In this document: one piece after another, positions 50,145 through 59,843 of the stretch
How the letters are laid out: each line of letters starts with the position of its first letter
How positions within the stretch are numbered: the first letter of the stretch is position 1
NCBI RefSeq assembly: GCF_031624495.1
Contig: NZ_JAMQOP010000001.1
Span: forward strand, 930,001 to 994,000
Direction: 5' to 3'
Source of the DNA: Halogeometricum sp. S1BR25-6
Lineage (GTDB): Archaea > Halobacteriota > Halobacteria > Halobacteriales > Haloferacaceae
Length of the DNA stretch: 64,000 nucleotides
Position numbers and translations under genes: made by a program
The notes under the pieces: model-generated
Databases searched by the model: none
What the model was told of the DNA's origin: nothing
The model's input: the letters and a program-made list of their open reading frames with translations, nothing else

Positions 50145-51929
50145 TCAGTTCCCGGGCCGCTCTCTCGCCGAGCGAATCCGGTCGGACTCGTGTTTGATGA
50201 CGTTGCCCTCGTAGACGATGCCGCGCTCGGCGTGCAGGGTGATTTCGGTACCGGCGGCGACGCTGTTGGGGATGGGGGCGCCCGAAATCATCGGGAGGTC
50301 GAGTTCGCGGGCGACCAGCGCGGGGTACCCCGTCATGCCCGGGCGGGCGTCGATGATGCCGCCGAGTTTCTTCGCGTCGCCGTCGAACTCGCCGTCGAAG
50401 GCGGCGGTGAGAGCGAGCAGCGCCCCCTCCGGGACGTCCGAGAGGTCGCCGTCGTCGGAGACGGCCAGCGGTCCGGCGACCCGGCCGCCAACGACCTTCC
50501 GCCCCGTCGCGACGGCCTCGGCGGCGACGTGGACCTTCAGCATGTTCGTCGTGTTCGTCCCCTCCAGTTCGGTCATCATCCCCGAGAGGACGACGAGCGT
50601 GTCGCCGGAGGCGGCCACGTCGGCGTCGAGGGCCGCGTCGACGGCGTCGTCCATGATGTCGTTGATGCCGTTGCGGTAGTCGGCGTACTTCGGGATGACG
50701 CCCCACGAGAGCGTGAGTTGGCGGCGCACGCGGTCGTTCGGCGTCGTGGCGACGACGGGCACGCTGGGGCGGAACTTCGCCGTCTTTCGGGCGGTGTACC
50801 CCGACTCCGAGGCGGCGACGATGGCGCTGGCGTTCACGTCGCGCGAGAGATAGCGCGCCGAGCGAGCGAGCGCCTCCGTCCGCGACTCGCCTTCGGCGAC
50901 GGGGACGTGCTGTTCTTGATTCTCGGCGTACTCCTCGCTGGACTCGACCTGTCGGACGATGCGGTCCATCGTCTGGACGACGCGCACCGGGTTGTCGCCG
51001 ATGGCCGTCTCGCCCGACAGCATCACGGCGTCGGTGCCGTCGAGGACGGCGTTGGCTACGTCGGAGGCCTCCGCGCGCGTCGGCCGCCGGGAGTGGACCA
51101 TCGAGTCGAGCATCTCCGTCGCCGTGATGACTGGGGTCCCCGTCGCGTGGCACTTCCGAATGATGCGCTTTTGGATGATGGGCACCTCTTCGAGCGGCAT
51201 CTCCACCCCGAGGTCGCCGCGGGCGACCATCACGCCGTAGGACGCCTCGATTATTTCGTCGAGGTTCTCGACGGCCCCCGCTCGCTCTATCTTGGCGACG
51301 ACGGGGATGTCGGCGCCGAGGTTTTCGAGGGCGTCGCTGATGGTGTAGATGTCCTCGGCGGAGCGCACGAACGAGGCGGCCACGAAGTCCGCCCGCTTCT
51401 CGGCGGCGACTTCGAGTTCGCGCTGGTCGCCTTCCGTGATGAGGTCGATGTCGAGTTTGACGCCCGGGAGATTGACGCCCTTCCGCGCCCCGAGTTCCCC
51501 GCCCGACTCGATGCGCGCGATGACGGCGTCGCCCTCGACGCGTTTGACCGTCGCCTCGATGCGGCCGTCGTCGAGCAGGATGGTGTCGCCCGCCTCGGCG
51601 GCCGAGATGGAGTACGAGAGGCCCACCTCTTCCGGCGTCGCGTCCTCACCCTCGAGGAAGCGGACTTCGCTCCCGGTGTCGAGGCGGATGGAGCCGTCGA
51701 TGGGGGCGGTCCGGACTTCCGGTCCCTGCAGGTCGACCATCGCGGCCAGCGGTTCCGTGGTTGCGTCGTCGACGGTGCGAATGCGGTCTATCACTTCCTC
51801 TCGGTGCTCCGGCGTGCCGTGGCTGGCGTTCAGGCGCGCGACGCTCATACCGGCGTCGGACAGCGCCCGAATCGTCGCTCGGTCGTCGGAGGCGGGACCG
51901 AGCGTACAGACGATTTTCGCATTTCTCAT
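50145..51929 (-). CDS. pyk: pyruvate kinase
   Basis: A 594-aa enzyme making pyruvate and ATP from PEP and ADP. N-terminal RNAKIVCTLGPASDDRATIR, AGMSVARLNASHGTPEHREE, then the family motif DFVAASFVRSAEDIY, PVVAKIERAGAVENLDEII, VMVARGDLGVEMPLEEVPII and TATEMLDSM. The last 110 residues add a PEP-utiliser-like phosphohistidine fold (LPMISGAPIPNSVAAGTEIT), found in some pyruvate kinases, but its usual His is not in the expected TGGxTSH context. The start is ATG 51929, not the longer frame. TATA TTTTTTATG lies about 27 nt upstream. Confidence 0.95.
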   Translation of the reverse strand: MRNAKIVCTLGPASDDRATIRALSDAGMSVARLNASHGTPEHREEVIDRIRTVDDATTEPLAAMVDLQGPEVRTAPIDGSIRLDTGSEVRFLEGEDATPEEVGLSYSISAAEAGDTILLDDGRIEATVKRVEGDAVIARIESGGELGARKGVNLPGVKLDIDLITEGDQRELEVAAEKRADFVAASFVRSAEDIYTISDALENLGADIPVVAKIERAGAVENLDEIIEASYGVMVARGDLGVEMPLEEVPIIQKRIIRKCHATGTPVITATEMLDSMVHSRRPTRAEASDVANAVLDGTDAVMLSGETAIGDNPVRVVQTMDRIVRQVESSEEYAENQEQHVPVAEGESRTEALARSARYLSRDVNASAIVAASESGYTARKTAKFRPSVPVVATTPNDRVRRQLTLSWGVIPKYADYRNGINDIMDDAVDAALDADVAASGDTLVVLSGMMTELEGTNTTNMLKVHVAAEAVATGRKVVGGRVAGPLAVSDDGDLSDVPEGALLALTAAFDGEFDGDAKKLGGIIDARPGMTGYPALVARELDLPMISGAPIPNSVAAGTEITLHAERGIVYEGNVIKHESDRIRSARERPGN

Positions 51930-57138: not shown

Positions 57139-59454
57139 TCAGCGCACCGAGTCGAGCACGAGTCGCTGCTCCTCCCGCTTGACCTCGTGTTGCACGTCGC
57201 GGACGGCGTCGATGTTCGCCGAGATGGAGGAGACGCCCTCGTTGACGAGGAACTGGACCATCTGCGGTTTCGACGCCGCCTGCCCGCAGATGCTCGTCTT
57301 CACGTCCAACTCCCTGCACGTCTCGATGGTGTCGCCGATGAGTTTCAACACGGCGGGGTGGAGTTCGTCGAACCGGCCGGCGACGTTCTCGTTGTTCCGG
57401 TCGACGGCGAGGGTGTACTGCGTGAGGTCGTTCGTCCCGAACGAGACGAAGTCGAGTCCCGCTTCGGCCATCTCCTCGACGCCGAGCGCCGAGGCGGGCG
57501 TCTCTATCATCACGCCCCACTCGCGCTTCTCGGGGTCGATGCCCGCCTCGCGCATGAGTTCCCTCGCCTGAATGACGTCCTCGGCGTCGTTGACGAGGGG
57601 GAACATCACCTCGACGTTGTCGTAGCCCATCTCGAACAGCCGTCGGAACGCCTCCAACTCGTGTTTGAACAGGTCGGGCTTGTCGAGGCTTCGTCGGATG
57701 CCTCGGTAGCCGAGCATCGGGTTGTGCTCGCGCGGTTCGTCCTCGCCGCCCTCCAACTGCCGGAACTCGTCGGTCGGGGCGTCGAGGCTCCGAACGCGTA
57801 CCGGTCTGGGGTAGAACTCCTCGGCGACGCCGCGGATGCCGTCGACGAGTTCCTCGATGTAGGCGCGTTCGCCGTTGTCCTCGATGTACTTCGTCGGCGT
57901 CTTGCCGAGCGACAGCACCATGTGCTCGATGCGGAGGAGGCCGACGCCGTCGGCGCCCGTCGCGGCGGCGCGTTCGGCGGCTTCGGGGATGGAGACGTTC
58001 ACTTTCACCTCCGTGGCCGTCATCGGCTTGACGGGCGTCTTCGGCCGCGCCTCCTCGATGGGTTCTCGCTGTTCCTCCGTCTCTTCGGCGCCCTCGCGGA
58101 CGGTGCCCTTGTCGCCGTCGATGGTGATGGTCTCGCCGTCGGGTATCTCCCGGGTGCCCGACCCGGTGCCGACGACGGCGGGCACGCCGAGTTCGCGCGA
58201 GACGATGGCCGCGTGGGAGGTCATTCCCCCCTCGTCGGTGACGATGCCCGCCGCGCGCTTCATCGCGGGCACCATGTCCGGCATCGTCATCTCGGTGACG
58301 ATGATGTCGCCCTCGGCCACCTGGTCGAGGTGGTCGAGTTTCGTGATGATGCGAGCCTCGCCGGCCGCGATGCCGGGACTCGCGCCGAGGCCGCGCAGTA
58401 TCATGTCGCCGGACCCCGAGGCCCGGTCCTCTCCCGCCTGACCCTGCTGGCCGTTCTCGGACCCGCCGTCGCCGGCGGCGGCCTCGCGGGCCGCCGACTC
58501 CTCCTCGCCGTCGGAGATGGTGGTGATGGGGCGGGACTGCAGCATGTACACGTCGCCGTCGTAGACGGCCCACTCGACGTCCTGCGGTTCGCCGTAATGG
58601 TCCTCGACGCGTTCGCCGAGTTCGACGAGGCGAGCGATTTCGCTCTCGTCGAGGACGCGCGCGTCACGCATCTCCTCCTCGACGTCGAGTTCGACCGTCT
58701 CGCCGGTCTCCTCGTCTTTGACCATCTTCGTCTTCTTGTCCGCGATGGTGGCCGTCTCCACCTCCCCCGAGTCGCGGTCGACGACGTAGTTGTCCGGCGA
58801 GACGGACCCCGAAACCACGGCCTCGCCGAGACCCCACGCCGCCTCGATGATGATTCGAGGGTCGCCCGTCGAGGGGTGCGAGGTGAACATTACGCCGGAC
58901 TTCTCGGCGTCGACCATCTCCTGGACGACGACGGCGATGTCGACGTCGCGGTGCGGGAACCCCTTGCGGTTGCGGTAGTAGATGGCGCGCTGAGAGAACA
59001 GCGACGCCCAGCACTCCTTCACTCGCTGGAGCAGGTTGTCCCGCTGAACGTTCAGGTACGTCTCCTGTTGGCCGGCGAACGACGCGTCCGGGAGGTCCTC
59101 GGCCGTCGCGGAGGAGCGCACCGCAACGAACGCCCCGCCCTCGCCGATGTCGTCGTAGGTGGCGAGAATCTCCTCGCTCACCTCCTCCGGTATCGGCGTC
59201 TCCATGATGAGTTCGTGCGCTCGTTCGTGCGCCGTCTTCAACGCCGCAGAGTCCTCGTGGTCGACGTCGACGGCGTCGAAGAGTTCCTCGTCGATACCCG
59301 CTTCCTCGATGAACGAACGGTACGTCCCGGCGGTGACGACGAACCCCGGCGGCACGGGAAGACCCGCCGAGGTCAGTTCGCCCAGTGAGGCGCCTTTACC
59401 GCCGACTGTGTCGATGTCGTCGGCGCGTACGTCGTCCAGCCAAACTACAGCCAT
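57139..59454 (-). CDS. ppsA: phosphoenolpyruvate synthase
   Basis: A 771-aa three-domain enzyme making PEP from pyruvate and ATP for gluconeogenesis. The N-terminal ATP-grasp part starts VVWLDDVRADDIDTVGGKGA, SLGELTSAGLPVPPGFVVTA, with VAVRSSATAEDLPDASFAGQ. The central phosphohistidine domain has His414 in GGMTSHAAIVSREL. The C-terminal PEP/pyruvate barrel has LLRIEHMVLSLGKTPTKYIE, FVSFGTNDLTQYTLAVDRNN and SICGQAAS with the catalytic Cys. A Ser/Gly/Glu linker of about 35 residues sits before the phosphohistidine domain. The promoter carries a TrmB-type site (59521-59538). Confidence 0.96.
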   Translation of the reverse strand: MAVVWLDDVRADDIDTVGGKGASLGELTSAGLPVPPGFVVTAGTYRSFIEEAGIDEELFDAVDVDHEDSAALKTAHERAHELIMETPIPEEVSEEILATYDDIGEGGAFVAVRSSATAEDLPDASFAGQQETYLNVQRDNLLQRVKECWASLFSQRAIYYRNRKGFPHRDVDIAVVVQEMVDAEKSGVMFTSHPSTGDPRIIIEAAWGLGEAVVSGSVSPDNYVVDRDSGEVETATIADKKTKMVKDEETGETVELDVEEEMRDARVLDESEIARLVELGERVEDHYGEPQDVEWAVYDGDVYMLQSRPITTISDGEEESAAREAAAGDGGSENGQQGQAGEDRASGSGDMILRGLGASPGIAAGEARIITKLDHLDQVAEGDIIVTEMTMPDMVPAMKRAAGIVTDEGGMTSHAAIVSRELGVPAVVGTGSGTREIPDGETITIDGDKGTVREGAEETEEQREPIEEARPKTPVKPMTATEVKVNVSIPEAAERAAATGADGVGLLRIEHMVLSLGKTPTKYIEDNGERAYIEELVDGIRGVAEEFYPRPVRVRSLDAPTDEFRQLEGGEDEPREHNPMLGYRGIRRSLDKPDLFKHELEAFRRLFEMGYDNVEVMFPLVNDAEDVIQARELMREAGIDPEKREWGVMIETPASALGVEEMAEAGLDFVSFGTNDLTQYTLAVDRNNENVAGRFDELHPAVLKLIGDTIETCRELDVKTSICGQAASKPQMVQFLVNEGVSSISANIDAVRDVQHEVKREEQRLVLDSVR

Positions 59455-59480: not shown

Positions 59481-59489
59481 TCATAAGTA
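59481..59489 (-). promoter_or_regulatory. TATA box for ppsA
   Basis: TACTTATGA on the minus strand with a CGGAAAG BRE-like run before it; it predicts a start near 59458, four bases before the ATG. Confidence 0.6.
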
Positions 59490-59520
59490 CTTTCCGACCG
59501 ACGAAGGCGTGAATAATGCC

Positions 59521-59538
59521 GTACTCGGCTCCGAGTAC
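59521..59538. promoter_or_regulatory. TrmB-type operator, TACT-N7-GAGTA, upstream of ppsA
   Basis: GTACTCGGCTCCGAGTAC has 8-bp inverted arms and an exact TACT-N7-GAGTA core. This motif is reported for the sugar-sensing regulator TrmB of Halobacterium. It lies about 45 nt upstream of the ppsA TATA box, the placement expected for activation. Confidence 0.65.
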
Positions 59539-59557: not shown

Positions 59558-59787
59558 TCACTCCTCTCCCCACCGCTCTCGACCATGGGCTTCGCAGAAA
59601 GTTTCGCCGGAACCGAAATCCGGATAGAACGCCTCGCCGGCCGCGACGGCCTCACCGCAGACCGCACAGCAGTCGTCGTGGCGCAGGAAGTACTTCCCGT
59701 CCGGCCGTCCCGTCTCCAGTCGCCCGGTCCGGACGGCGGGACGGGTGAGTCCCTCGCCGATAGTAGCGTCTGCAACTGTCTACTCAT
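59558..59787 (-). pseudogene. broken gene for a small zinc-ribbon protein
   Basis: A frame with clear protein character (GKYFLRHDDCCAVCGEAVAA, FYPDFGSGETFCEAHGRERW) ends at 59558. It has CxxC ... CxxH residues for one zinc. Upstream it runs into TAG with no ATG, GTG or TTG. An ATG at 59787 lies in another frame. Removing two bases just after it (ATGAGTA[GA]CAGTTGCAGAC) gives a complete 75-aa protein, MSTVADATIGEGLTRPAVRT and on. So a 2-bp insertion probably inactivated it. A rare CTG start is the alternative. The insertion lies inside an 85-bp palindrome. Confidence 0.55.
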
Positions 59788-59843
59788 CCGACCGCGCCCT
59801 GTCGTGCGGTCGAGTGAGTGATGACTTGCAGACGCTTACTATC
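59759..59843. repeat. 85-bp imperfect palindrome
   Basis: GATAGTAGCGTCTGCAA (59759-59775) pairs with TTGCAGACGCTTACTATC (59826-59843) with one bulged base. Inside, CGACCGC pairs with GCGGTCG near the centre, with partly matching ACTCA/TGAGT parts between. About 29 of 36 positions per arm match. It covers the start region of the broken zinc-protein gene and could be a folded RNA, a small inverted-repeat element or an inverted duplication. Confidence 0.6.

Follow-up and report, generated by a model that had tools for sequence, protein, structure and literature searches.

A predicted TrmB operator upstream of the phosphoenolpyruvate synthase gene ppsA of Halogeometricum and its conservation in related haloarchaea

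The 18-mer GTACTCGGCTCCGAGTAC at positions 59521-59538 of the window (the whole stretch of 64,000 nucleotides analysed here) lies upstream of the ppsA gene and is very probably a docking site of the sugar-sensing regulator TrmB. It is quite likely that this inverted repeat serves as an operator of the haloarchaeal TrmB, through which ppsA would be activated when glucose is scarce. The presence of the site and of trmB, where the site lies, how far it is conserved, and the sister sites before gapII, trmB and a malic enzyme gene can be read from the sequences compared below; occupancy, sugar response and activation would follow from published work on Halobacterium. The features concerned are:

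59521..59538, no strand assigned: predicted TrmB operator, GTACTCGG-CT-CCGAGTAC; core at 59522-59537, motif on both strands, footprint in relatives
59490..59496, minus strand: BRE-like CGGAAAG of the ppsA promoter; with CGNAA conserved there
59483..59489, minus strand: predicted TATA-like TACTTAT of the ppsA promoter; first base at -35
57139..59454, minus strand: ppsA, phosphoenolpyruvate (PEP) synthase, open reading frame of 771 aa with its ATG at 59454; 958.5 bits on NF005057 and 951 bits on TIGR01418, both above cut-off
50145..51929, minus strand: pyk, pyruvate kinase, the opposing enzyme; start at 51929; 513.4 bits on TIGR01064, above cut-off (range beginning one codon earlier)

The Site and Its Promoter

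The repeat has two 8-bp arms that flank a CT centre, and because this centre is non-symmetric the 18-mer is not a perfect palindrome. The initial annotation described an exact TACT-N7-GAGTA motif before ppsA, and the motif is indeed present, on both strands, as TACTCGGCTCCGAGTA at 59522-59537. Haloarchaeal TrmB operators are expected to have the form TACT-N(7-8)-GAGTA, with which the ppsA site agrees exactly. No other exact copy occurs within the 64-kb window, where the remaining matches have one mismatch. Genome-wide (4,516,345 bases in 9 contigs), the exact motif is found at 12 distinct places, and its strand matches number 19 versus 11 for a reversed-pattern control. With 12 distinct exact places in 4.52 Mb, one would be expected by chance to lie no more than 150 nt from a given gene start about 4 times in 10,000.

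On the ppsA coding strand the core occupies -83 to -68 relative to the ATG, and it lies upstream of the predicted BRE/TATA elements (59483-59496), the order toward the ATG being the site, then CGGAAAG and then TACTTAT. The distance of about 45 nt that had been given from the site to the TATA box is right if measured between their centres (43.5 nt), and 31 nt lie between their facing edges. Between the site and the BRE-like element is a T-rich stretch resembling TTTTATTCAC (window 59497-59520), which is kept in many relatives. Among the matches listed, the closest relative is from Halogeometricum limi, with 89% identity.

Conservation of the Site Before ppsA

The ppsA loci compared here come from named genomes, the best 80 of 201 relatives, and they make 81 rows when the window is included. 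The published motif (TACT/GAGTA with a spacer of 7 or 8) was scanned for its best match in the 250 nt upstream of each start, and reversed sequences were the control. The upstream regions had 0 mismatches in 10 rows, 1 in 34, 2 in 21 and 3 in 16, and the reversed control had 0 mismatches in none, 1 in 5, 2 in 31, 3 in 40 and 4 in 5. At most one mismatch was therefore found in 44 of 81 upstream regions versus 5 of 81 controls. A few of the one-mismatch matches have another position, as in three Halorientalis loci, where the match precedes the start by 18 nt.

A symmetric core, WACTCR-N4-YGAGTW, is apparent in the unaligned rows. This core was picked post hoc from the alignment, and the scan with the unchanged published motif is the unbiased test; allowing two mismatches, the core is present 64-99 nt before the start in 66 of 77 rows, compared with 4 of 231 control windows farther upstream. 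All but one of the 66 have it at 76-84 nt, and the remaining one at 92 nt. The 77 rows omit three of the 80 loci (L050, L070 and L074), which are without a start codon at the alignment edge. When L074 is re-anchored the site is present, so that 67 of 78 usable loci have it at a near-fixed distance. L050 and L070, scanned with shifted starts, have no site (best matches with 4 and 5 mismatches), and counting both as site-less gives 67 of 80.

By genus-level label, the site is present in 27 of 33 (78 loci). It is missing in Halorientalis (0 of 4) and Halorarius (0 of 2), in Salinigranum, Halolamina and two MAG labels (one locus each), and in one of the four Natrinema loci. The gap from the site to a CGNWA BRE-like element has two common values, 24-25 nt in 47 of 68 rows and 18-19 nt in 16 of 68. 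The half-site columns have a mean pairwise identity of 0.80, compared with 0.29 for the inner N4 and 0.28 for the 20-nt flank upstream; that is, the flanks are near saturation and the half-sites are held. The footprint excludes a chance origin of the site, and its conservation argues that the site matters in most of the lineages examined. The ppsA site is real and conserved and is probably a functional TrmB operator, and the earlier interpretation is well supported for binding and position.

Comparison with Known TrmB Systems

The ppsA promoter of Hbt. salinarum is occupied by TrmB when the cells grow on amino acids; after glucose is added, TrmB departs within 2 min and ppsA drops 3.6-fold (as given in PMC3794607). 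The operators of that regulator (VNG1451C), that of ppsA among them, have the form TACT-N(7-8)-GAGTA, and the site described here matches this published motif exactly. The target gene is the same, the site is on the side of the BRE/TATA elements described for activated genes, and the TrmB ortholog of this genome belongs to the same NCBI equivalog model. According to a review, TrmB sites upstream of the promoter bring about activation and those downstream repression (PMC4158304). We infer activation of ppsA under sugar scarcity in this species because both the sequence and the upstream arrangement are the same as at the published Halobacterium sites.

The TrmB of Har. hispanica (HAH_1548) recognises a 19-bp partially palindromic motif (PMC10817205), which is similar by its description. 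It binds the promoters of ppsA and gapII, both of which carry sites here, and its activated genes have their sites upstream of the predicted initiation elements, as at ppsA here (PMC10817205). TrmBL1/Tgr with the glycolytic motif of the Thermococcales follows the same logic, activating gluconeogenic genes from upstream of BRE/TATA and repressing from downstream, but its recognition sequence, TATCAC-N5-GTGATA, differs (PMC4158304).

It is conceivable that TrmB binds the ppsA site with little effect on expression, occupancy having been retained without strong regulation. This would resemble the situation in Har. hispanica, where there is a ChIP peak at ppsA and no differential expression of the gene was detected in a trmB deletion (PMC10817205). 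It is for this reason, and because the evidence for this genome is one of sequence, that activation is put conditionally here. However, the effect in Hbt. salinarum is strong, as noted above, and selection for function is suggested because the half-sites and their spacing have been kept while the flanks are near saturation. We therefore consider binding without much consequence to be unlikely, and activation of ppsA by TrmB remains the preferred reading.

The Regulator

A trmB gene was to be expected if the initial annotation was right, and the genome does encode an ortholog, at 231232-231933 of contig C2, which scores 588.8 bits on NF047392, the NCBI haloarchaeal TrmB equivalog model (cut-off 500). 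It carries both TrmB Pfam domains, PF01978 (DNA-binding) and PF11495 (sugar-binding). In a PF11495 search of the genome, the sugar-binding domain is near-complete in five proteins, and three further matches are weaker. Four full-length paralogs besides the ortholog reach 117.5-154.7 bits on NF047392, below the cut-off of 500, and these could share or compete for the ppsA site.

Given these four proteins, the site might in truth be used by a different regulator that recognises a similar sequence, such as one of the paralogs. The motif is that of the Hbt. salinarum TrmB ortholog (PMC3794607, PMC4158304), however, and is similar to the one in Har. hispanica (PMC10817205). The trmB promoter of this genome also contains the exact motif, at C2:232294-232309, and a PWM scan of the four paralog loci, the glucose dehydrogenase loci and two porA/kor-like loci found no site convincingly placed in a promoter. 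Use of the ppsA site by a regulator other than TrmB is accordingly quite improbable.

In the trmB promoter the site lies downstream of a TTATAT (TATA-like) element, which is the repressor arrangement for the TrmB family (PMC4158304). This differs from Har. hispanica, whose trmB is reported to be without autoregulation (PMC10817205).

Co-occurrence of TrmB and the ppsA site was followed in 49 genomes, of which 46 have a TrmB above the cut-off. The three with none above it (those of L067, L079 and L070) are also without the ppsA site. TrmB is present in all 37 site-bearing genomes searched and in 9 of the 12 site-less ones, and therefore TrmB does not require the ppsA site. Fisher's test gives p = 0.012 (0.042 without L050 and L070) for genomes that were hand-picked to include site-less ones, with shared ancestry uncorrected. 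The finding of site and regulator together in related species is not independent evidence species by species, and the co-occurrence is supportive only.

The site is absent in L042, L044, L056, L057 and L088, which belong to Halorientalis and Halorarius litoreus; all four of these genomes that were searched (L044, L056, L057 and L088) have a TrmB above the cut-off. Since TrmB is present and the site is absent, ppsA may be wired differently in these organisms.

DNA Adjoining the Site

Two other elements are found in the adjoining DNA. An 83-bp MITE-like element (window 59760-59842) has long inverted ends (GATAGTA..GCGTCTGCAA) and a strong predicted hairpin (z -8.44); sequences matching it at 80-100% identity occur at 23 distinct places in the genome. 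A 73-codon open frame (window 59558-59779, minus strand) with a zinc-finger-like CxxC...C..H pattern lies immediately upstream of the ppsA site. As this frame lacks an ATG and runs into the MITE-like element at its 5' end, it may be a remnant; its cysteine pattern was found upstream of ppsA in none of 80 relatives.

The region of the repeat folds well as RNA (z -3.38) and an ORF terminates 20 nt before the core, but a terminator or RNA hairpin of this small ORF is rejected because the cysteine motif of the ORF was matched upstream of ppsA in 0 of 80 relatives, most of which retain the site, and the repeat has no T-run after it; with a chance palindrome excluded by the footprint, either origin is very improbable.

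Sister Sites

Three of the 12 exact sites in the genome are tied to promoters consistent with TrmB, namely those of ppsA, the malic enzyme gene and trmB, and the others are in or near open reading frames. In addition, the gene for the gluconeogenic glyceraldehyde-3-phosphate dehydrogenase, gapII (TIGR01546, above cut-off), has TACTCGCCGCGGAGTT 74 nt before its start. Among 30 gapII loci of the family, out of 57 genomes with a match, 24 have a similar site at 72-74 nt, and behind most of these sites stand TTAATTTC and a constant promoter that resembles CGAAATAACTAT. When up to two mismatches are allowed anywhere in 200 nt, the site is found in 27 of 30 loci versus 2 of 30 coding controls. In Har. 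hispanica, gapII is listed as a direct TrmB-activated target (PMC10817205, Table 2). The fbp gene of this genome has partial half-sites only in its upstream region.

The malic enzyme gene at C2:364616, which encodes PF00390 and PF03949 and, where the sequence is cut, the beginning of a PTA domain, has the exact motif 90 nt before its start. The comparison used 30 loci, 59 of 60 genomes having a match. With at most one mismatch the site is present in 7 of 30 loci, chiefly in the nearest relatives, versus 0 of 30 coding controls; with at most two, the numbers are 10 of 30 and 4 of 30. The second malic enzyme copy, on contig C4, has no site upstream (best match with 3 mismatches). A literature search, which missed the original regulon paper, found no statement of malic enzyme as a TrmB target, and the words malic and malate are absent from the main text of PMC10817205.

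Many malic enzyme promoters of the family (L117-L146) have a second inverted repeat, of the GTCGAA-N(6-9)-TTCGAC type, directly before a TATA-like element and about 30-75 nt before the start, also where the TrmB-like site is missing. This repeat is a candidate operator of some other regulator.

Pyruvate Kinase and Carbon Flow

The pyk gene displays a different pattern. As the initial annotation had it, there is no TrmB site before this gene; the best match in the 300 nt upstream has 3-4 mismatches, which is not comparable to the ppsA site. In Hbt. salinarum, by contrast, pyk is also a TrmB target, and a repressed one, so that the two-sided ppsA/pyk switch of that organism is lacking its pyk site here. 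Har. hispanica, where pyk is not a TrmB target (PMC10817205), agrees with the site-less pyk found here. A different activator of pyruvate kinase and of GAPDH I, GfcR, has been described in H. volcanii (PMC11519228).

H. volcanii is also reported to be without PEP carboxykinase and to make PEP via malic enzyme and PEP synthase (PMC7746861). A search of the present genome for PEP carboxykinase of the ATP type did not find one.

Conclusions

The control of ppsA would operate as follows. When glucose is scarce, TrmB, probably as a dimer, would bind both ACTCG/CGAGT half-sites, which immediately precede the BRE/TATA elements, and assist the initiation machinery, so that PEP synthase is made and pyruvate can be directed to sugars. 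Once sugar binds to its C-terminal domain, TrmB would depart and ppsA expression would drop.

A switch of this kind is already known, and because ppsA is a TrmB-bound gene in two species, finding it here was largely expected. The additions are modest: how widely the site is conserved, a sharper consensus that is symmetric, and the malic enzyme gene as a candidate target. On a wider reading, TrmB control of ppsA would be ancient and common across the haloarchaea rather than specific to Halobacterium, and in Halogeometricum and its close relatives one of the two malic enzyme genes would have come under it as well. TrmB would then co-activate the steps from malate to pyruvate and from pyruvate to PEP, together with the gapII step, as one gluconeogenic module, and pyk would be left to another regulator. 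We regard this wider reading as evenly balanced between holding and failing.

In conclusion, the ppsA half of this TrmB switch is predicted to extend more widely than would appear from the two species studied by experiment, and its pyk half is missing here. The pattern WACTCR-N4-YGAGTW, set at either of two distances from the BRE-like element, would provide a sharper model for predicting TrmB regulons. A shared TrmB switch on malic enzyme, at present a candidate target, and PEP synthase would, if true, make sense given the route to PEP described for H. volcanii (PMC7746861).
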